DNA of 41,311 bases, taken from positions 1 through 41,311 of the forward strand of contig JAGBHP010000032.1 of assembly GCA_017935435.1 (NCBI GenBank), read 5' to 3'. The notes under the pieces were generated by a model. The model searched no databases and had not been told where the DNA came from. It saw only the letters and a list, made by a program, of their open reading frames with translations. The DNA is from Clostridia bacterium. Its GTDB lineage: Bacteria; Bacillota; Clostridia; UBA1381; UBA9506. Position numbers and translations under genes: made by a program. Below are positions 274-41,216 of the stretch, in pieces (position 1 is the first letter of the stretch; each line of letters starts with the position of its first letter).

Positions 274-1377
274 CTAACATAATAACTTTAAAACAAGTGC
301 TGCGATTTTGTTTGAAACAGGACGTAATTTCTCAACAAGCAATTCGCAGCCTTTTTTTATTCTTAACAGCTTAAATAGTAATAGTCTTAAATAATCTATT
401 AATGCACATATAAGAAATATGATAGCTGCGGCTAAGAGAGCATATATCACCAATAAAACAACGTTTAGTGAAGCAAAATTTGCAAACGCCTTGCTTAAAA
501 TATTATGCCAAACATAGTGTTCGGTGTGTATTACATATATACCAAATGTAAGTGGCGAAAAGAACATAATAGCTTTTTTGGCAGATGTGCTTTTAACACT
601 AACTTTCGAAAATATAAATAACAACATTATAGCTGATAACAACGTTGTCGGATATATGTAAGTAATCAGCGTTGATTTTAAAATATTTGAGTATTTGCTA
701 AATACTGCCAATGCTGCACACAGAATAAAAATTATAATATATTTCGGCTTTTTATCAGGAATTTCATCAGAAAACAGTCTTATGCAACCGCCAAGTAAAT
801 ATAACATCATAAGCCAAATTGTTGAATATCCCCACGAGGTTTTAAAAACATCAATATCTAAAACATATGGCATAATTGAGAATACAACAATAATTGTTGC
901 GGAAAGCAGTTTCGCTTCTTTTTTAGACAAACTCAACAAAAGCTTATTCATAAACGGCATCAAAAAGAATATGCCAAAATAAGCTGCAAAGTACCAACAT
1001 GCTTTAGCTGAAAATGGATTGAGCGCTGCTAATATATCCTTTGCAGTAGCTGTATCGGGCACAAAAAAGTAAAAAAGTGTTGTAGATAAAACCATGTAAA
1101 ATATTACCATCAGGGTCAAATTTATTATATTTGAATATTTGTGTTTTGATTTTACTCCCACATACCCTGAAATAAGAGCATAACAATTCACTGCACAATA
1201 TGCAGCCGCTTCAAAAAACCAGGATACAAAATAGTTAACTGAATTTTTTTCACATGCGTTTAATATTCCACCATGCCCGAAAACATGAAGCAAAACAACC
1301 ATATACATAGTAAAAATTCGCATTAAATCTATGCCGTAGATTCTATTGTCATTTGAAAACGATAAATTTGTACTCAT
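274..1377 (-). CDS. Membrane acyltransferase (acyltransferase-3 family)
   Basis: This 367-aa protein is predicted to transfer acyl (probably acetyl) groups onto cell-surface sugars. It has about ten hydrophobic segments. The N-terminal motif NRIYGIDLMRIFTMYMVVLL, followed by HVFGHGG, is typical of acyltransferase-3 (WecH/OafA) proteins, with the conserved Arg and Asp before the first membrane helix and the catalytic-type His at its end. The start ATG lies just after the wecB terminator in the same orientation. WecB and TagO next door suggest that the acceptor is a wall polysaccharide or teichoic-acid linkage sugar, but this is context only. The exact substrate cannot be read from the sequence. 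Confidence 0.85.
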   Translation of the reverse strand: MSTNLSFSNDNRIYGIDLMRIFTMYMVVLLHVFGHGGILNACEKNSVNYFVSWFFEAAAYCAVNCYALISGYVGVKSKHKYSNIINLTLMVIFYMVLSTTLFYFFVPDTATAKDILAALNPFSAKACWYFAAYFGIFFLMPFMNKLLLSLSKKEAKLLSATIIVVFSIMPYVLDIDVFKTSWGYSTIWLMMLYLLGGCIRLFSDEIPDKKPKYIIIFILCAALAVFSKYSNILKSTLITYIYPTTLLSAIMLLFIFSKVSVKSTSAKKAIMFFSPLTFGIYVIHTEHYVWHNILSKAFANFASLNVVLLVIYALLAAAIIFLICALIDYLRLLLFKLLRIKKGCELLVEKLRPVSNKIAALVLKLLC

Positions 1378-21889: not shown

Positions 21890-22942
21890 TTAAATTTCAA
21901 TTAACTCTTTTTCCGAGGAGGTAAGATTTAAAATTCCGCCGTCTTTAATTACAACCAAATCTTCAATGCGCACGCCGCCGAAATTTTCAATATAAATTCC
22001 GGGCTCTACTGTCATAAGCATATTTTCTTTTAAAACGACATCGCTTTTAGGTGAGCACGATGGGAGCTCATGCACCAAAAGACCAAGGCTGTGACCAAGT
22101 CCGTGACCGAAATTTTCGCCATAGCCTGCATTTTTGATGATATCTCTTGAAATTTTATCCACGTCTTTTGCGCATATACCTGCTTTTAAAACCGAAAGTG
22201 CGGCTTTTTGTGCTTTAAGAACGGTTCTATAAATTTCCTTTTGTTTTTCGCTTGCTTTTCCCAAAACGACAGTTCTTGTCATATCGCTTACGTAGCCGTC
22301 AAAAACACAACCAAAATCAAAGGTTATAAAATCGCCGTTTTCGATTTTTTTATCGCTTGCAGCACCATGCGGCATAGCAGAGCGCACACCGCTTGCACAG
22401 ATTGTTTCAAAAGAAAGGGCGGATGCGCCTTTTTTTCTCATAAAAAATTCAAGCTCTAAGGCAAGGTCTATTTCTTGCACGCCTTCTTTTATAAATTTTA
22501 AAATGTGCGAAAAGCCTTCGTCGGCAATTTTTGCCGCAATGCGAATTTTTTCAATTTCATCTTCGGATTTTATCATTCTTACTTTTTCTATTATCGTGCT
22601 TATTCCCTCAAATTCTACGCCATCTAACTTACTTTTAAGGTTGTTAAAATAAAAACACGTCATGCTTTTTTCAAGGTAGCCGATTTTTTTTACATTTTCT
22701 GATTTTAAAACGGCAGATACAGGCGTTTTTGCAATGTTTACCATTTCGTAATCCACAGCTTCTGCTGCCGCCTGAATAAAATACCTCGAATCCGTTACGA
22801 TGTATCTTTTGTTTTTCGTTATCACAAGATATGAATCATCACCTGTAAATCCGCTTAAATAAAATATTTCAGGCTGTGCGGAAATGAAAAGCACATCACA
22901 ATCTGTGTTTTTAAAAATTTCATTTATTCTCTTTGTATACAT
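21890..22942 (-). CDS. M24 family Xaa-Pro aminopeptidase
   Basis: This metallopeptidase removes an N-terminal residue before proline. The 350-aa protein has a creatinase-like N-terminal domain and a pita-bread catalytic domain with all five metal ligands: Asp pair in FDFGCVFDGYVSDMTRT, His in FGHGLGHSLG, Glu in VEPGIY and Glu in GVRIED. ATG 22942 follows GGAG by eight bases; an upstream in-frame ATG lacks a site. In many Clostridia this gene precedes efp, which is not seen here. Upstream (23003 on) lies a repeat cluster. Confidence 0.93.
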   Translation of the reverse strand: MYTKRINEIFKNTDCDVLFISAQPEIFYLSGFTGDDSYLVITKNKRYIVTDSRYFIQAAAEAVDYEMVNIAKTPVSAVLKSENVKKIGYLEKSMTCFYFNNLKSKLDGVEFEGISTIIEKVRMIKSEDEIEKIRIAAKIADEGFSHILKFIKEGVQEIDLALELEFFMRKKGASALSFETICASGVRSAMPHGAASDKKIENGDFITFDFGCVFDGYVSDMTRTVVLGKASEKQKEIYRTVLKAQKAALSVLKAGICAKDVDKISRDIIKNAGYGENFGHGLGHSLGLLVHELPSCSPKSDVVLKENMLMTVEPGIYIENFGGVRIEDLVVIKDGGILNLTSSEKELIEI

Positions 22943-28679: not shown

Positions 28680-31313
28680 GTGGAACACGTTGAAGATATA
28701 AAGACAGGGGTTATGGAATCGGAAACAGAAATGGAAAATGAAGTTTTCGTTTCTAACGAAATTGAAGCAGAAGAGGAAAAAAAGGTGCCAAGGGGCGCAT
28801 TTTCGTCGCTTAAACTCAATAAATTCATTATATACGGACTTTCTTTTTTGCTTCCGTTTGTCGCAATGGTTATAATTTATGCGACTTTCGGTGTTTATCC
28901 GTTTGGCGAAAAGACGGTGCTTGCATTTGACCTTAGTGCGCAGTTTTCTATATTTTTAGATTATTTCAGGCGTGTGCTTTTAGGCGAGGAAAGTCTTTTT
29001 TATGCTTTTTCTAAAGGTATGGGCGGAAATATGTACGGTCTTTTTACTTACTATCTATCGAGTCCGTTTTCGCTTTTGATGATTTTCTTTTCTCAGGAAA
29101 CGCTTCCTGAGGCGATAGCTTTTATCATCACTATTAAAATCGCCTGCGCAGGACTTACTTTTTCGATTTTCTTAAAAAACATCTTTAAAAGAAGCGATTT
29201 AGCCGTTGTAGCATTTTCGTGTATTTATGCACTTTCGGGATATATGATGCAGTATTCGATGTGCATTATGTGGTTAGACGGCGTAATCTGGCTTCCGATT
29301 ATACTTTTGGGAGTTGAGCGGATTTTAAAGGGAAAATCGGGAATTTTATTTGTATTTTCCTATGCGGTTTCTATGATTTCAAGCTACTACACAGGCTACA
29401 TTAACACAGTTTTTGTCGTTTTGTGGTTTTTTAGCCGTTATTTTACGCAAAACGAAAAAATTGACATAAAAGACCTATTAAAAAAGGTCTTAACAATAGC
29501 TTTATGGGGCTTAGTCGGTCTTTTGATAAGTGCTGTAATCTTAATCCCCGGTTTTATGGACATTTTAAACGGAAAGCTTTCGTGGGACAAGGCAACATCA
29601 AACGTTCCGAAGCAAATTTTAAGTCATAATATAACAAAACTGCCCGCTCAGCTTTTTACGGCACAGTTTACCGAATTTATGAATAAAGCATATCCGCCTG
29701 TTTTCTGCAGTATGCTCTCAGGCGTGTTTACATCTTTTTACTTTTTAAACAAAAGCATAAAAAAGCGTGATAAAATTGTTACTGTTTGCATGTTCTTCAT
29801 CTTTTTACTTAGCTTTTTTATAATCCGTATTGATATGATATGGCATATCTTCCAGTATCCGAACGGTTTTCCGTACAGATATGCTTACTGCTTCTGTCTG
29901 TTTTGTATTTATACGGCTTTTAAAGGCTTTGATGCAAAGGAAAAAGCGGATGCAAAAACGGCAATAGTTGCATTTTTGGCATATATAATTATAATTGCGG
30001 ACAAGTTTATTTTTGAAAATGCTTCTCTTGCAAATAAAACTAATGCGCTAATTAGCATTGGATTTATACTTGTTTACGGAATTATCGTTTTCTTTATGTA
30101 TTTTTCAAAGAAGAAATTCAGCTCTCTTTTAAGCGTCATTCTTTTGGCGGTGTTATTTGCAGAGCTTACTTTAGGCGGTTCGCTTACGCTTACTGCGCTT
30201 AGCGGAAAGGTTACCTATAAGCCCAAAGGTGAATTTGTAAAGTTTAATAAGGATATGCACGAGGTAGATGATTTTATTGCAGGCAGAACAAGGGAAAAAT
30301 TTATCCGTTGGGACAAAACCTTTGGTCCGACAAGAAATGACAGCTTAATGACGGGCAACAGCTCTACGACATCGTTTGTTTCCAATTTTAACGGAAACCT
30401 TATGTGGATTTATGATAAAATCGGTCTTTTGTATTCCTCTATCGTAACAAGATATGACGGCTCTACAATTATTACTGACAGTATTCTCGGTATGAATTTT
30501 ATTGTTTCTGAAAAGCCCGTAAACGATGAATATAGCGAAATAAAAACGCTTGAAGGCAGAAATATATACAGAAATAATTATGCTCTTCCCTTGGGCTTTG
30601 CGGTAGATGATGATATTCTTACAGACCTTGAATATACGGAAAATTATCTTGAAAATCAGGATATTTTGGCAAGGGCACTTTTAGATAGCGATGAGCCTTA
30701 CGGAATGAATATCGGGGAAATAGAAAAGAAAGGAACAAAGCTTTCATTTACTGTAACGGAAGACGGCTTATACTACGTAAGCTTAATAAGCAGATATACA
30801 GGTACGAAGTTTGAAATGACCAAAAACGGCGAAAAAATTGATGACTTATATAATAACGGAAGTGCAAAAACGCATTGCCTTGGATATTTTAAAGGCGGTG
30901 ATGAGATTACGCTCACGCTTTCTAAGGAAAGCTTTATAAAAGAGGCGAAAATTTATGGCTTTAAGCCTGAAAAAATTAAGGAAGACTTGCTCAGAAAAAA
31001 AGAAGATGCACGCTTTTTAGTTACAGAGAAAAGAAAAACAGGTTTGAGTGCAGAAGCAGAGCTAAAAGATGGCGAAGTGCTGTTTACCACCATTCCTTAT
31101 GAAAAAGGGTGGGAGGCAACGGCAAACGGCGAAAAGGTTGAGGTAAAAAGCGCTCAGCACGGCTTTTTGGCGCTTGAGCTTCCCGCAGGAAAATATGATA
31201 TTGAGTTTAGCTACCACGTACCAGGTCTTAAAATTTCGTTTGTAATTTCGATTGTTTCACTTCTTGGTGTTATAATTTATGCCTTTATGAAAAAAGCAAA
31301 CAGTAAAAAGTAA
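28680..31313 (+). CDS. YfhO-family membrane protein, copy 1 (probable lipid-linked sugar transferase)
   Basis: This 877-aa protein has a charged N-terminal tail, then about 12 hydrophobic helices (residues 45 to about 510) and an extracellular C-terminal part ending in one helix. The family (YfhO/GtlB, GT-C-like) is linked to glycosylation of teichoic acids in Firmicutes. Visible features are DLSAQFSIFLDYFRRVL, SKGMGGNMYGLFTYYLSSPF and the membrane-proximal FTTIPYEKGWEATANG. Start GTG 28680 follows GCGGAGG by eight bases. It is followed by a strong terminator and a paralogue, and the last 264 bases of coding DNA are almost identical between the two. Confidence 0.88.
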   Translation: MEHVEDIKTGVMESETEMENEVFVSNEIEAEEEKKVPRGAFSSLKLNKFIIYGLSFLLPFVAMVIIYATFGVYPFGEKTVLAFDLSAQFSIFLDYFRRVLLGEESLFYAFSKGMGGNMYGLFTYYLSSPFSLLMIFFSQETLPEAIAFIITIKIACAGLTFSIFLKNIFKRSDLAVVAFSCIYALSGYMMQYSMCIMWLDGVIWLPIILLGVERILKGKSGILFVFSYAVSMISSYYTGYINTVFVVLWFFSRYFTQNEKIDIKDLLKKVLTIALWGLVGLLISAVILIPGFMDILNGKLSWDKATSNVPKQILSHNITKLPAQLFTAQFTEFMNKAYPPVFCSMLSGVFTSFYFLNKSIKKRDKIVTVCMFFIFLLSFFIIRIDMIWHIFQYPNGFPYRYAYCFCLFCIYTAFKGFDAKEKADAKTAIVAFLAYIIIIADKFIFENASLANKTNALISIGFILVYGIIVFFMYFSKKKFSSLLSVILLAVLFAELTLGGSLTLTALSGKVTYKPKGEFVKFNKDMHEVDDFIAGRTREKFIRWDKTFGPTRNDSLMTGNSSTTSFVSNFNGNLMWIYDKIGLLYSSIVTRYDGSTIITDSILGMNFIVSEKPVNDEYSEIKTLEGRNIYRNNYALPLGFAVDDDILTDLEYTENYLENQDILARALLDSDEPYGMNIGEIEKKGTKLSFTVTEDGLYYVSLISRYTGTKFEMTKNGEKIDDLYNNGSAKTHCLGYFKGGDEITLTLSKESFIKEAKIYGFKPEKIKEDLLRKKEDARFLVTEKRKTGLSAEAELKDGEVLFTTIPYEKGWEATANGEKVEVKSAQHGFLALELPAGKYDIEFSYHVPGLKISFVISIVSLLGVIIYAFMKKANSKK

Positions 31314-31446: not shown

Positions 31447-34053
31447 GTGGAACTTACAGAAAAGATAAAAGTAAATAGCGGAAAAACAGGAGAAGAGGGG
31501 ACAAAGGAAACAACTGTAAACCCAGATTTGTTGCCAAAGGAAAAAAATAGGATTTTTGTACATATCCTTGCGTTTTTGCTTCCTTTTCTTGCTATGATTA
31601 TAATATATGCATTTTCGGGAGTATATCCTTTTGGTGAAAAAACGGTACTCACCATTGATATTAATGAACAGTATTCTATCTTTTTAGATTATTTCAGACG
31701 AGTGCTTTTAGGGGAAGAAAGCCTTTTTTATGCTTTTTCTAAGGGCATAGGTGGAAATATGTATGGTCTTTTTACATACTATCTTTCAAGCCCGTTTTCA
31801 TTTTTAATGATTTTCTTTTCACGGGAAACTTTGCCTGAGGCAATAGCTTTTATTATTGCGCTTAAAACAGCTTGCGCAGGTCTTACTTTTTCAATTTTCT
31901 TAAAAAAGATGTTCAAAAAAAGCGATTTATCTATTGTTATATTTTCGTGCATTTATGCGCTTTCAGGATATATGATGCAGTATTCAATGTGTCTTATGTG
32001 GCATGACGGAGTAATTTGGCTTCCTATTATTCTTTTAGGTGTTGAGCGTATTTTAAAGGGAGAATCAGGACTTTTATTTGTTTTTGCATATGCAGCATCG
32101 ATGATTTCAAACTATTATACAGGGTACATGAACACAATTTTTGTTGCTTTGTGGTTCTTTAGCCGTTATTTTGCACAAAATGATAGAGTTGATGTAAAAG
32201 ACCTTGTAAGAAAAGTTTTGACGATAGCTTTTTGGGGAGTAGTTACTCTTTTGATAAGTGCGGTAATTATAATTCCGGGATTTTTGGATATTTTAAGCGG
32301 AAAGCTTTCATGTGAAAAACTAATATCTATTGCTCCTAAAAAGATTTTAACTAACAATATAACTATGCTACCTAAACATTTATTTATAGGGCAGTACGAC
32401 TCTTTATACAACAGCGGAAATCCTGCTATATTTTGTGGCATGATGTGTGGTATTTTAGTATCTGTGTTTTTCTTCAGCAGTAAAATAACGATTAGAAAGA
32501 AGATTGCCACAGCAGTTGTTTACGCAATTTTCTTTTTGAGCTTTTTTATTATGAAAATCGACATGATATGGCATATTTTTCAATATCCTAACGGATTCCC
32601 TTTCAGATACGTGTATACGTTTAGCTTGTTTAATATTGTAACGGCATACGAGGGATTTATTTCACTTAATAAAAATCCGAGAAAACTTACTGTTGCAGCT
32701 TTTTCGGTATATCTTTTTATTGTGCTGGATCGCATTATTTTTCTAAGCGGTACAATTAAAAATCAAAGTCTTGTGTATATAAGCTTTGTATTTATTGCGA
32801 TATATGCAACATTAATATTTTTGATGATTTTTTCCAAAAAGGACCTGAAAAAAATCGTATGTTCTTTAATTTTAATTGCTACTTTTGTTGAACTTACATT
32901 AAACGGATATTCTATAATGGCAGGAATTGATAAAAGTTTTCATTACAAAACAAAGACCAGTTATAATGAGTTTATGCAACAAATGGATGATATTAATGAA
33001 TTTGTGAAGTCGCGCACAAATGAAAAGTTTTTCAGGTGGGACAAAACGTTTAGCAGAACGCGCAATGATGGCTTGTTACACGGATATAACAGCGTTACTT
33101 CTTTTATTTCCACGTTTAACGGAAATACGATATCTTTTTTTGATAGAATGGGATTGCTTCATTCTCCGATTACAACTCGCTATGATGGCTCTACTATTGT
33201 TACAGATGCACTTTTGGGTATAAAGTTTATAGCTTCGGAAAAGCCTTTAAACGATGAATATGAAGAAATTAAGAGCTTTGATAAATACAAAATATATAGA
33301 AACGCAAACGCTTTGCCTTTAGGTTTTACGGCAAATGAAGATGTTTTAAAAGAGGCAGAAGATGTGCCTTCTTGTATGGAAAATCAAAATTTATTTGCCC
33401 AAGCTATTTTTGGAAAGAATTATGGCATTCCTGTTGAGGATGTAGATATAAATGGAACTTCGTTTACCTGTACCGTGCCCGAAGACGGATTGTACTATAT
33501 GAGATTTCTAAACAGATACGTACATTTAGATGTTGAGTTTAGTGTAAACGGCGAGGAAATAGATTATCCATATGATAATAATGCGAAAAAAATATTTTGC
33601 CTTGGTTATCGCAAAGCAGGAGATGTTATAACGGCAACCATAACTAAAGAAGATGTTATGAAAAGAGTTATAGTTTATGGCTTTAAAAACGATGAATTTA
33701 AAAATGATTGCATGGAAAAAGTAAAAAATCCAGGTTTTAAAATAAATGAAATAAGAAAAACAGGTTTGAGTGCAGAAGCAGAGATAAAAGATGGCGAAGT
33801 GCTGTTTACCACCATTCCTTATGAAAAAGGGTGGGAGGCAACGGCAAACGGTGAAAAGGTTGAGGTAAAAAGCGCTCAGCACGGCTTTTTGGCGCTTGAG
33901 CTTCCCGTAGGAAAATATGATATTGAGCTTAGCTACCACGTACCAGGTCTTAAAATTTCGTTTATAATTTCGATTGTTTCACTTCTTGGTGTTATAATTT
34001 ATGCCTTTATGAAAAAGAGGAGTTTAAAAAATGATAATTGGAACGGGAATTGA
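31447..34053 (+). CDS. YfhO-family membrane protein, copy 2
   Basis: This 868-aa protein has the same plan as copy 1: hydrophobic helices from about residue 35 to 500, DINEQYSIFLDYFRRVL, SKGIGGNMYGLFTYYLSSPF, MSRYDG-like TTRYDGSTIVTD, and FTTIPYEKGWEATANG near the end. Start GTG 31447 follows GGGGGA. Most of the gene has diverged clearly from copy 1, especially the extracellular part (about residues 515-760), whereas the final 264 coding bases match with only five differences. The end overlaps the acpS start by 23 bases. Different acceptors or sugars for the two copies are plausible. Confidence 0.88.
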   Translation: MELTEKIKVNSGKTGEEGTKETTVNPDLLPKEKNRIFVHILAFLLPFLAMIIIYAFSGVYPFGEKTVLTIDINEQYSIFLDYFRRVLLGEESLFYAFSKGIGGNMYGLFTYYLSSPFSFLMIFFSRETLPEAIAFIIALKTACAGLTFSIFLKKMFKKSDLSIVIFSCIYALSGYMMQYSMCLMWHDGVIWLPIILLGVERILKGESGLLFVFAYAASMISNYYTGYMNTIFVALWFFSRYFAQNDRVDVKDLVRKVLTIAFWGVVTLLISAVIIIPGFLDILSGKLSCEKLISIAPKKILTNNITMLPKHLFIGQYDSLYNSGNPAIFCGMMCGILVSVFFFSSKITIRKKIATAVVYAIFFLSFFIMKIDMIWHIFQYPNGFPFRYVYTFSLFNIVTAYEGFISLNKNPRKLTVAAFSVYLFIVLDRIIFLSGTIKNQSLVYISFVFIAIYATLIFLMIFSKKDLKKIVCSLILIATFVELTLNGYSIMAGIDKSFHYKTKTSYNEFMQQMDDINEFVKSRTNEKFFRWDKTFSRTRNDGLLHGYNSVTSFISTFNGNTISFFDRMGLLHSPITTRYDGSTIVTDALLGIKFIASEKPLNDEYEEIKSFDKYKIYRNANALPLGFTANEDVLKEAEDVPSCMENQNLFAQAIFGKNYGIPVEDVDINGTSFTCTVPEDGLYYMRFLNRYVHLDVEFSVNGEEIDYPYDNNAKKIFCLGYRKAGDVITATITKEDVMKRVIVYGFKNDEFKNDCMEKVKNPGFKINEIRKTGLSAEAEIKDGEVLFTTIPYEKGWEATANGEKVEVKSAQHGFLALELPVGKYDIELSYHVPGLKISFIISIVSLLGVIIYAFMKKRSLKNDNWNGN

Positions 34054-37840: not shown

Positions 37841-38116
37841 TTGTCTCAGCTAAAAAAAGTACTGATTACCGTTCCCGATACACTGCTTAGGCAAGTTGAT
37901 AGCTTAGCAAGCGATGAAAAAGTTAATCGCAGCGAGTTTGTCCGCGAGGCAATGAAAATGTATATCAAAGAAAAAGAAAAGGCTGCTCTGCGTGATAAAA
38001 TGAAGCAGGGCTATAAGGAAATGGCTCAGATTAATCTGAGTATAAGCCAAATGTGTTTCGAGGCGGAAAATGAAGCATTTTCCCGCAGTGAGGAAAAAAT
38101 TGCGGAGTGTGAGTAA
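37841..38116 (+). CDS. mazE: Antitoxin MazE/NdoAI-type (ribbon-helix-helix)
   Basis: This 91-aa protein is the labile antitoxin of a type II module. Residues 5-45 form a ribbon-helix-helix ([38 protein letters not shown]), and the acidic C terminus should bind and block the toxin. Start TTG 37841 follows GGAGG by nine bases. The toxin starts two bases after its stop codon. Confidence 0.88.
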
Positions 38117-38118
38117 TT

Positions 38119-38469
38119 TTGGTCGTAAAAAGAGGAGATATATTTTATGCTGATTTAAGCCCTGTTGTCGGTTCGGAGCAGGGCGGTACAAGACCTGTTT
38201 TGGTTGTGCAGAATGATGTGGGCAATAAATTCAGCCCGACTGTCATTATTTCTGCGATTACTTCTAAAATAAACAAGGCAAAGCTTCCTACTCATATTGA
38301 AATCAGTGCCGAAGATTACGGACTTTCAAAGGATTCTGTAATTCTTTTGGAGCAGGTGAGGACAATTGATAAAAAACGCTTGAGAGAAAAAATAGGAAGA
38401 CTTGATGACGAGCTTATGGAGGAGGTAAACTCAGCACTTTCTATAAGCCTCGGTCTTATTGATGTGTAA
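38119..38469 (+). CDS. mazF: mRNA interferase MazF/EndoA-type toxin
   Basis: This 116-aa endoribonuclease is expected to cut mRNA at short sequence sites. It has [40 protein letters not shown], the Thr/Ser-containing IISAITSKI, and [13 protein letters not shown]. The TTG start overlaps the mazE end region, giving coupled translation. The position after alr is the one seen for chromosomal EndoA in Bacillus. Confidence 0.95.
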
Positions 38470-39138: not shown

Positions 39139-39344
39139 TTAGATTGGAATTTATGCAATTAAAGGTTGAGGTGAGTGTTGTAGGGGACGGCCTCCCGGAC
39201 GTCCCTTTTGCATTGAATTCATGCGTATTTCAACGGGACGTCCATGAGGACGTCCCCTACGACATAACCGTTAATTTTCTCGGGAGGGCACAGAGACCCT
39301 CCCCTACGATATCTAATCATAACCAAAAGTTAAATTACAATTTA
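39139..39344. repeat. Palindromic MITE-like repeat whose end supplies the SLOG stop codon
   Basis: The ends are TTAGATTGGAATTTA (39139-39153) and TTAAATTACAATTTA (39330-39344). Inside are TTGTAGGGGACGGCCTCCCG...GGGACGTCC and GGAGGGcacagagaCCCTCC modules. The right end encodes the final Lys-Leu-stop of the SLOG gene. Positions 39043-39138 carry a broken copy (GGTCGGGCGG...) with no gene. Confidence 0.8.
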
Positions 39345-39829
39345 TCGTTACAAACATTTACAGTTTCAACTTTTTTTCTTTGAGCATACAAAATGGTATT
39401 TTTAGTGCCGCCGCTTATGCCGCAGTATGCGCTGATTACACGAGCAGAGTTATCTACCATATAACAATTTCTTATTTGAAAACAACTTTTAGAGTAATGC
39501 TCACACACGAATTTTACAAAATCTGCTTCATTTAAAATTTTATTATATTTTTCCTTTTCGCTTATTTCCCATCTTTTTTCAAAACCCTTATAAGGAGAAG
39601 CGCATATAAGTTTGATTTGTTCATTATTTTTTCTTTCATCGAGTACAATTTCAGCTGCCCACATATCTACACCACGAGCCATACCTGAAATAAAGGTTGT
39701 AAAGCCATCGTTTATTGCATCTTTTATTGCAAGCCTTAGTCTTTGTTTTATTTCTTCTTCGCTCATTCCTATTTTTTCAGGTCTATGACCTGTAAAACAG
39801 CATCTGTGTAGTCTTTTTGTGTTTTCCAA
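39335..39829 (-). CDS. SLOG-superfamily protein, DUF1273/YpsA-like
   Basis: This 164-aa protein has CCFTGHRPEKIG near the N terminus, FISGMARGVDMWAAEIVLDE in the middle, and a later SARVISAYCGISGGT. These are the signatures of the DprA/LOG-like nucleotide-binding fold (DUF1273, YpsA). The family is thought to bind nucleotides or related ligands; the biochemical role here is unknown. Start TTG 39829 follows GGAGGG by seven bases. Directly upstream lies the terminator of a structured RNA, so expression requires readthrough of it or another promoter. Its last codons are in a repeat end. Confidence 0.88.
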   Translation of the reverse strand: MENTKRLHRCCFTGHRPEKIGMSEEEIKQRLRLAIKDAINDGFTTFISGMARGVDMWAAEIVLDERKNNEQIKLICASPYKGFEKRWEISEKEKYNKILNEADFVKFVCEHYSKSCFQIRNCYMVDNSARVISAYCGISGGTKNTILYAQRKKVETVNVCNDKL

Positions 39830-39845
39830 AATAATCCCTCCAAAT

Positions 39846-40058
39846 TAAAAAAGTGTGTGACCTCATTCGAAGCCACACACTGAAAAACGCTAACTCCGAA
39901 TGTTGTCACACAATCTAAAATTCATTCCGATTTATAAATAAATAGTAAATCCGGCAAACGAAAATAGAGCTCGCATTTTTACCAAAAGTAAAAACACCAG
40001 ATCTACTATTCCCAATTTATAAAATTAGAATACATTATTTAATTTTAGATTATGTGAC
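39846..40058 (-). ncRNA. Structured RNA, copy 1: rod-like domain plus 3' pseudoknot-terminator
   Basis: A minus-strand promoter (TTGTAA 40093-40088, 17 bases, TATACT 40070-40065) predicts a start near 40058, the first base of an 18-bp closing stem (40058-40041 with 39922-39905, one G-U). Inside is a 14-bp stem (40010-39997 with 39954-39941) and a short hairpin with TTTTTAC/GTAAAAA arms. At the 3' end CATTCGGAG pairs over nine positions with CTTCGAATG in the loop of the terminator (AGTGTGTG/CACACACT, 39881-39874 with 39859-39852), an H-type pseudoknot. A T run ends it. It leads into the SLOG gene, so it may also act as an attenuator: the closing-stem strand TTGTGTGAC could pair instead with the terminator arm GTCACACA. 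Confidence 0.7.
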
Positions 40059-40064
40059 GAATTT

Positions 40065-40093
40065 AGTATAACACAATTTTTTTATCTTTACAA
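40065..40093 (-). promoter_or_regulatory. Promoter of structured RNA copy 1
   Basis: TTGTAA (40093-40088), 17 bases, TATACT (40070-40065), seven bases before the closing stem. Confidence 0.65.
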
Positions 40094-40127
40094 CCTTTTT
40101 GTTAAATTTTAAAATGTTGTATATAGA

Positions 40128-40336
40128 TTAGGATTTAACACATGAATTGGTGGTCATGTTTGTAGGGGAGGGTCTCTGCGCCCTCCCGAAAAATATTATC
40201 GCAAGCGAGCAAGCCTGTTTCCTAAAATTGAGATATGAAACTAATGGCTTTGTTGTAGGGATGTTTGTTTTTACTCTGCTATTCGTTTGTGCAGATTTTA
40301 GCGGACCGTCCGGGAGGCCGGTCCCTACAAATTAAA
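40128..40336. repeat. Palindromic MITE-like repeat between the two structured RNAs
   Basis: It contains TTTGTAGGGGAGGGTCTCTG and CGCCCTCCC at one side and GGACCGTCCGGGAGGCCGGT plus CCCTACAA at the other, closely related to the units at 40520 and 40830. No gene is seen. Confidence 0.7.
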
Positions 40337-40479
40337 AAATGCGTGACACTACCTGAAAGTAGAGCCACGCACAAAAAACGCAGGGACTCTCTTTCAAAAT
40401 GCACCACACATCTATTAAATCAAACACTTACAACTATATAAGAGAATGACGAAAGAAGAGTGTACGCTTTTTATGTGGT
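40334..40479 (-). ncRNA. Structured RNA, copy 2: same architecture, shorter
   Basis: A minus-strand promoter (TTGATA 40514-40509, 17 bases, TATAAT 40491-40486) predicts a start near 40479, at the closing stem CACCA-c-CACAT (about 40483-40473) with ATGTGTGGTG (40411-40402). At the 3' end TGAAAGAGAG (40396-40387) pairs with CTCTaCTTTCA (40364-40354) in the loop of the terminator TGCGTG/CACGCA (40371-40366 with 40345-40340), followed by TTTTTT. GCGTTTTT lies between the first pseudoknot strand and the terminator in both copies, and both end TTTTTTAATTTG. No gene follows; a repeat begins there. Confidence 0.7.
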
Positions 40480-40485
40480 GGTGTA

Positions 40486-40514
40486 ATTATATCATACAAT
40501 ATTGTTTTTATCAA
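40486..40514 (-). promoter_or_regulatory. Promoter of structured RNA copy 2
   Basis: TTGATA (40514-40509), 17 bases, TATAAT (40491-40486). Confidence 0.75.
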
Positions 40515-40519
40515 GTGTT

Positions 40520-41161
40520 TTAAATTGGAATTTAATGCGCTGAATGATTGGTCATGTTTGTATGGGAGGGTCTCTGTGCCCTCCCGAAAAATATTATCGC
40601 AATCGAGCGAGCCTGTTTCCTAAAATTGAGATATGAAACTAATGGCTTTGTTGTAGGGATGTTTGTTTTTGATCTTCTATGCGTTTGTACAGATTTTAGC
40701 GGACCGTCCGGGAGGCCGGTCCCTACAACATAACCGCCAGTTTTCGGCGCAATTGTACGGGTAAATTACAACTTGCCTGCGGGCGGGCGCAGAGACCCGC
40801 CCCTACAAAACCAACCGATAAATAGAATGTTAAATTGGAATTTAACGTAAGGATGTTTGGTTGTATTTTGTAGGGAATGGATTTATCCATTCCGCCTGTA
40901 TTATTGTTAATAGCGGAAGGCATAAATGCCTTCTCTACAACTCTCGCCACAAAACTAATGGCTTTATTGTAGGGGAGTTTGTTTTTGCTCTGCTATTCAT
41001 TTGTGCAGATTTTAGCGGACCGTCCGGGAGGCCGGTCCCTACAACATAAGCGCAAGTTTTCGGCGCAATTGTATGGGTGAATTACGACTTGCCTGCGGGC
41101 GGGCGCAGAGACCCGCCCCTACAAAACCAACCGATAAATAGAATGTTAAATTGGAATTTAA
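40520..41161. repeat. Tandem array of palindromic MITE-like repeats
   Basis: TTAAATTGGAATTTAA occurs at 40520-40535, 40830-40845 and 41146-41161, making two units of 310 and 316 bp. They share long near-identical stretches (for example the GGACCGTCCGGGAGGCCGGT and GCGGGCGGGCGCAGAGACCC parts) but differ in the first module (GGGAGGGtctctgtgCCCTCCC in one, GGAATGGatttatCCATTCC in the other). No gene is present. Confidence 0.8.
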
Positions 41162-41216
41162 CTGTCGGTTGGGCGTAGCCTCCCCTGTGTAAGGGGAGGT
41201 GGGCAGATTATAATAT

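Follow-up and report, generated by a model that had tools for sequence, protein, structure and literature searches.

Judged by sequence comparison, the two RNA genes c1 and c2 belong to a large, uncatalogued, multicopy family of knotted RNAs of ~165 nt in gut Clostridia. Our preferred reading, to which we assign a probability of about 0.6, is that this family consists of class-wide ~165-nt RNAs with their own promoter and an intrinsic terminator, and that the members that lead genes, c1 included, act as riboswitch-like transcription attenuators. Patterns of sequence evolution support a closing stem (P1), a second stem (P2), a pseudoknot (B:C), the terminator (T) and, in leaders, an alternative hairpin. 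The two genes lie in tandem on the minus strand of the window (the whole 41,311-nt stretch of DNA analysed here), c2 at ~40485-40330 and then c1 at ~40058-39841, with c1 directly upstream of a ypsA-type SLOG gene (39829-39335, minus strand). Their features are as follows.

40486..40514, minus strand: c2 promoter, TTGATA-17-TATAAT with a TG-extended -10 box (11/12)
40473..40483, minus strand: c2 P1, 5' strand, bulged; partner 40402-40411
40451..40472, minus strand: c2 core segment B (AAAAAGCGTACACTCTTCTTTC); c2 has no 5' strand of P2
40402..40411, minus strand: c2 P1'
40373..40395, minus strand: c2 X5 plus linker, forming pseudoknot strand C (GAAAGAGAGTCCCTGCGTTTTTT)
40340..40371, minus strand: c2 terminator, with T5 at 40371-40364, X3 at 40364-40354 (CTCTACTTTCA), T3 at 40349-40340 and the U-tract at 40339-40328
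40065..40093, minus strand: c1 promoter, -35 TTGTAA, 17-nt spacer and TG-extended -10 TATACT (9/12)
40041..40058, minus strand: c1 P1 closing stem, 5' strand GTCACATAATCTAAAATT, at the predicted transcription start (from the fold and covariation in relatives)
39997..40013, minus strand: c1 P2, 5' strand (from the c1 fold)
39966..39980, minus strand: c1 core segment B (AAAAATGCGAGCTCT), conserved, located in the P2 loop and pairing with C (comparative)
39941..39954, minus strand: c1 P2, 3' strand (from the c1 fold)
39905..39922, minus strand: c1 P1', the 3' strand of the closing stem and also the antiterminator base, pairing with T3
39894..39902, minus strand: c1 X5 (CATTCGGAG), whose GGAG belongs to pseudoknot strand C
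39883..39897, minus strand: c1 pseudoknot strand C (GGAGTTAGCGTTTTT), partner of core B (comparative)
39852..39881, minus strand: c1 terminator, with T5 at 39881-39872, X3 at 39872-39864 (CTTCGAATG) and T3 at 39862-39852
39841..39852, minus strand: c1 U-tract TTTTTTAATTTG
39335..39829, minus strand: downstream gene for a 164-aa YpsA/SLOG-family protein (Pfam YpsA, E 4.7e-24; Shine-Dalgarno GGAGGG at 39841-39836)

The sequence-only reading had proposed two paralogous structured RNAs, each with a promoter, a closing stem and a terminator, and the promoter sites, shuffling controls and homologues bear this out. Both promoters are of the sigma-70 type; promoter-like sites across the c1/c2 region as a whole showed no excess over chance. 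The c1 closing stem comprises 18 bp (40041-40058 with 39905-39922) and that of c2 ~10 bp with a bulge. Set against 200 dinucleotide shuffles each, c1 has a z of -9.7 and c2 one of -4.6, and no shuffle folded as well. The 3' order X5-T5-X3-T3 is seen in c1 and c2 as claimed, and the linker GCGTTTTT and tail TTTTTTAATTTG are both conserved. c1 and c2 are not equivalent copies: c2 is a reduced copy without the P2 5' strand that its close relative L010 has. A candidate third copy in the window (22392-22556, plus strand; 22.9 bits, E 0.11) falls within a coding frame and was taken as a chance match.

The surroundings in the window contain direct repeats of ~190-210 nt (40143-40335, 40541-40733 and 40857-41049; 40636-40846 and 40952-41162). 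These carry GC-rich palindromes (GGGAGGCCGGTCCC) and take up the intergenic stretch from c2 to c1 as well as the region upstream of c2. Elsewhere on the plus strand are adjacent genes for paralogous YfhO-type membrane proteins (28680-31313 and 31447-34053) and, right after an alanine racemase gene, a ribbon-helix-helix protein with a PemK/MazF-like toxin, probably a toxin-antitoxin pair (37841-38469).

Homologues of the downstream YpsA/SLOG protein are present in relatives. In one genome of the same family, an RNA alignable with c1 and c2 lies directly upstream of a 70%-identical ypsA orthologue. A covariance model built from these three RNAs (R1) gave 67 matches, spread over 16 of 20 genomes from that family; the matches share a sharp core made up, in order, of (G)GUAAAAAUGCAUGCUCUAUUUUC, P1', (C)GGAG-linker-GCAUUUUU and the terminator. 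A second model (R2), built from a 27-sequence alignment (A6) and holding P1, P2 and T with no pseudoknot pairs, found members in at least 76 of 95 genomes of the order, with at least 28 copies in the best genome. In the class-wide sample, at least 77 of 291 genomes, belonging to 20 families, had members. Among 249 genomes sampled across the phylum, the sole R2 match was the window's own genome, with none outside the class. That genome, 67% complete, holds ~8 members, and tandem copies were frequent in the order and class searches. Most of the named records that contain one core variant are metagenome-assembled gut Clostridia from ruminants and other animals. The association with ypsA, kept in the second genome, favours the attenuator reading; most other ypsA homologues are without the RNA, which counts against it, and most copies lead other genes, so ypsA was rejected as the defining partner.

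The high copy number, up to at least 28 per genome, and the repeat-rich surroundings in the window might suggest a functionless decaying repeat or mobile element. We regard this as so improbable as to be nearly negligible: strong compensatory evolution over at least 20 families of a class contradicts it, promoter geometry is conserved, and the flanks are mostly not repeated along with the RNA. An initial 16-mer scan of viral sequence gave 26 exact matches. No plasmid matched the family, no viral contig matched the core pattern and a single unannotated phage record, unverified, did match; a mobile-element origin was rejected on these grounds.

Searches of Rfam 15, in which membership is defined by a covariance-model score at or above the family's gathering threshold, gave 0 matches over the whole window and only spurious matches in the c1/c2 region at E up to 10. 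Across 20 whole loci they returned one unrelated tRNA and nothing else, and in six loci at a relaxed threshold, together with the region around a distant member, nothing matched the RNA itself. Membership of a catalogued family such as drum or skipping-rope had been raised as a point to check; with cmscan, the RNA matched none, and neither model appeared among the Rfam matches for the window, the 20 loci, the six loci or the distant member's region. Likewise, the family matches no Rfam model for 6S RNA, tRNA, tmRNA, T-box or other catalogued RNAs. One locus (L087) carries an inverted pair of sub-threshold matches to Gut-1 RNA, at 867-948 (plus strand) and 969-1039 (minus strand), with 41.3 and 38.7 bits against a threshold of 50. 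A literature search, with subscription papers outside its reach, found no description of the family; a machine-made catalogue (e.g. PMC8040213) could list it under a number. The family is uncatalogued, and its unusual part is a dual life as leader and free-standing RNA with its own promoter; it is otherwise like orphan riboswitches.

Four helices are supported by A6: P1, P2, the pseudoknot B:C and the terminator T. In this alignment 95.8% of cells are paired, 25 of 41 pairs have changed on both sides, and 122 cells are doubly changed compared with 35 in shuffles; sliding the partner strand lowers pairing to 29-54%. A further alignment, A7, comprises 60 R2 matches from elsewhere in the order and class, a few of which A6 also contains; it gave 97.0% paired overall, 296 doubly changed cells compared with 73.5 after shuffling, and 28-56% paired in the slid controls. 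P1 is 99.2-99.3% paired over the two alignments, with double changes among relatives, and P2 is 83.6-93.5% paired. Homologues with compensatory changes, looked for by covariance-model search, are abundant, and the objection that there might be none therefore falls away. A structured conserved core backed by covariation, as in riboswitches, is present.

The conserved pseudoknot B:C joins the P2-loop core (AAAAAUGCAUGCUC) to the X5/linker region (GAGCuAUGCAUUUUU). The pseudoknot proposed earlier was right in that X5 and the linker take part; their conserved partner is core B in the P2 loop rather than the terminator, with B:C heavily covarying and paired in 95.8% of cells in A7 and 95.8-98.9% over A6 and A7. 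The strongest conserved partner of X5 is thus a core segment ~70-90 nt upstream rather than X3, and the U's of the linker pair with the invariant A5 of the core. Since R2 contains no pseudoknot pairs, B:C was not fitted by the model. The A5/U5 part of B:C varies never or hardly and so gives no covariation evidence, but its GC-containing part does covary. A local hairpin A:B (GUGUAUUUUU with AAAAAUGCAU) was considered as a conserved alternative; it is 91.8% paired, and we make no claim for it because its covariation in compact members hardly exceeds that of shuffles.

The sequence-only reading had also held that X5:X3 pairing is maintained despite sequence change. This is upheld in the 68 leaders, where each leader's own duplex averages -7.03 kcal/mol compared with -4.71 +/- 0.22 for permuted partners, in a test that only partly removes shared ancestry. 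X5:X3, which pairs mainly in copies leading genes, continues into P1':T3 to give one long hairpin, P1'-X5 / X3-T3. In L010 this hairpin joins GUGUGUAGC-AACCUU-CGGAGAG with CUCUaCCG-AAGGUU-GGCUACGCAC, and in c1 it joins GUGUGAC-CAUUCGGAG with CUUCGAAUG-GUCACAC. As the hairpin excludes both P1 and the terminator, it would be an antiterminator. For P1'+X5 with X3+T3, the 68 leaders have a duplex energy of -15.96 for their own partners compared with -12.40 +/- 0.31 for permuted ones, with the same partial removal of shared ancestry. This complementarity is greater in leaders than in 31 free-standing copies (Mann-Whitney p = 3e-4), and P1':T3 alone is significant in leaders (p = 0.002) and not in free-standing copies (p = 0.38). 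The control alternative helix, P1(5'):T5, was not significant. In constrained folds of c1, c2 and L010, which leave out the pseudoknot, the terminated and antiterminated states lie within 3-10 kcal/mol of each other; the omitted pseudoknot would tip the balance towards termination. For leaders, in which complementarity exceeds permutation, terminator and antiterminator structures are predicted to exclude each other, as in riboswitches. Some leaders, such as those of genes for the 78-aa MNIKVELL proteins, lack antiterminator complementarity.

These results bear on the original proposal of a static H-type pseudoknot, X5:X3 within the intact terminator and perhaps with a triplex. X5:X3 does pair in c1, c2 and many leaders, but the helix does not stop there: the P1':T3 pairing into which it extends competes with T5:T3 and excludes it, so that a pseudoknot built into the terminator is not supported. 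In c1, a 9-bp X5:X3 helix in an intact terminator would leave 1-2 nt for the spanning loop, which seems sterically implausible. The X5/linker region has a better conserved partner in B, and in many members the terminator loop is short and UUCG-like, with X3 scant or absent. We consider the static form very unlikely and prefer to see X5:X3 and the complete terminator as alternative states, not as parts of a single pseudoknot present at one time.

The transcription unit appears to be the same throughout the family. Of 114 distinct members, 107 have a -10 box upstream (25% of shuffled sequences have one); the best box is 5-6 nt before P1 in 83, and a TG extension is present in 84. From this fixed -10-to-P1 geometry, the RNA of both leaders and free-standing copies is predicted to run from P1 to the terminator. 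By an automatic rule (leaders have a Shine-Dalgarno sequence and an open frame downstream), which leaves a few assignments doubtful, the 114 comprise 68 leaders, 31 copies facing a convergent gene, 14 of other kinds and one left unjudged. The 68, like c1, form a 5' leader directly before a start codon, which in the 68 is usually 14-130 nt past the U-tract and behind a Shine-Dalgarno sequence. The 31, and c2, have the form of free-standing small RNAs, with their own predicted promoter and terminator and no downstream gene. Genes behind leaders include those for BspA-type leucine-rich-repeat secreted proteins, SLH S-layer proteins, copper-amine-oxidase N-domain proteins, YpsA/SLOG proteins, DUF4177-like proteins and several short uncharacterised proteins. 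At L089, L107, L208, L220, L224 and L205, in several genera, the RNA is followed by a conserved 77-78-aa protein (MNIKxELLxNYISDFI...); the one tested had no Pfam match, and the leaders of these genes show little antiterminator complementarity.

The free-standing copies raise the possibility, which we find doubtful, that the family is primarily a free-standing small RNA, acting in trans or binding protein, with gene-leading copies as read-through accidents or secondary uses. The promoter at a fixed distance in both kinds of copy would fit this, as would the tandem arrays, whose copies seem to have their own promoters (c2 and c1; L216), and the ~27% of examined members that face a convergent gene and have none to control; both also count against a general attenuator. 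Some free-standing copies lie beside homologous genes in two species (MutY-like, L092/L112; MgtC-like, L095/L122; named by eye), which suggests selection. This account is at odds with the 68 members placed close ahead of genes with a Shine-Dalgarno sequence and with the greater antiterminator complementarity of leaders. A copy of the 3' half (P1'+X5+C, without the 5' half) accompanies 10 of 45 non-leaders compared with 2 of 68 leaders. Such copies lie on the opposite strand, in the 3' region of the convergent gene just beyond a shared bidirectional terminator, and were noted downstream of L092, L095, L112, L124, L131, L132 and L082; they could pair in trans with core B.

Under the attenuator reading, the folded core (P1 + P2 + B:C) would hold P1' and the GGAG of X5, so that T5:T3 could form and transcription would halt before the gene. 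Once the core opens, P1'+X5 would capture X3+T3, blocking the terminator and allowing the gene to be transcribed. Because many copies are placed switch-like just ahead of a gene, they may sense a signal; folding of the core might be controlled by a bound ligand (a metabolite, ion or protein), which would then turn the gene off. The leader genes are varied and hence no single pathway points to a ligand. Free-standing members would act, if at all, as discrete small RNAs.

Alternatively, the same attenuator might need no small ligand and be switched by a protein that binds RNA or by an RNA acting in trans, along the lines of LicT/RAT-type antitermination. The varied regulon and varied P1 sequence around a conserved core are compatible with this arrangement, but the core is pseudoknotted, aptamer-like and ~165 nt long, and known ribonucleic antiterminator hairpins are much smaller; we judge it unlikely. 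Like terminator/antiterminator riboswitches (e.g. SAM-I, THF, ZTP and preQ1), the family has a leader position, a conserved pseudoknotted core closed by P1, a P1 3' strand shared with the antiterminator, an intrinsic terminator just before the gene, and tandem copies. Unlike them, it has no Rfam match or assigned ligand, has its own promoter with P1 at the predicted start, includes many free-standing copies facing convergent genes, and has a regulon rich in secreted surface proteins; its tandem copies, unlike those of ordinary tandem riboswitches, seem to carry separate promoters. The raiA motif (ModT RNA) is similarly structured, conserved in Clostridia and able to be free-standing (PMC11706538), whereas the present family has many copies per genome, leads genes through a predicted switchable terminator and is matched by no model in cmscan of Rfam 15. 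It also resembles the Rfam orphan RNAs Clostridiales-1, Gut-1, drum and skipping-rope in occurring in gut Clostridia, free-standing or near terminators, but none of these matched it, even at E up to 10 in two small regions.

As a tentative extension of the attenuator reading, it is possible that these RNAs form a new riboswitch-like class of Clostridia, in which leaders of surface-protein, SLOG and small-protein genes and free-standing small RNAs use the same promoter-P1 module, at up to at least 28 copies per genome, to respond to one common signal. Free-standing copies might then titrate the ligand or act in trans on leader copies or on neighbouring 3'-half copies in 3' UTRs.

Present in about a quarter of sampled class genomes, and often many times per genome, the RNA would be among the commoner orphan regulatory RNAs that gut Clostridia carry. 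The proposed switch is defined precisely enough that a single reporter with a handful of compensatory mutants could test it. Since the RNA leads genes for secreted leucine-rich-repeat, S-layer, copper-amine-oxidase-like and SLOG proteins, knowing its signal would reveal what controls the surface of these bacteria.
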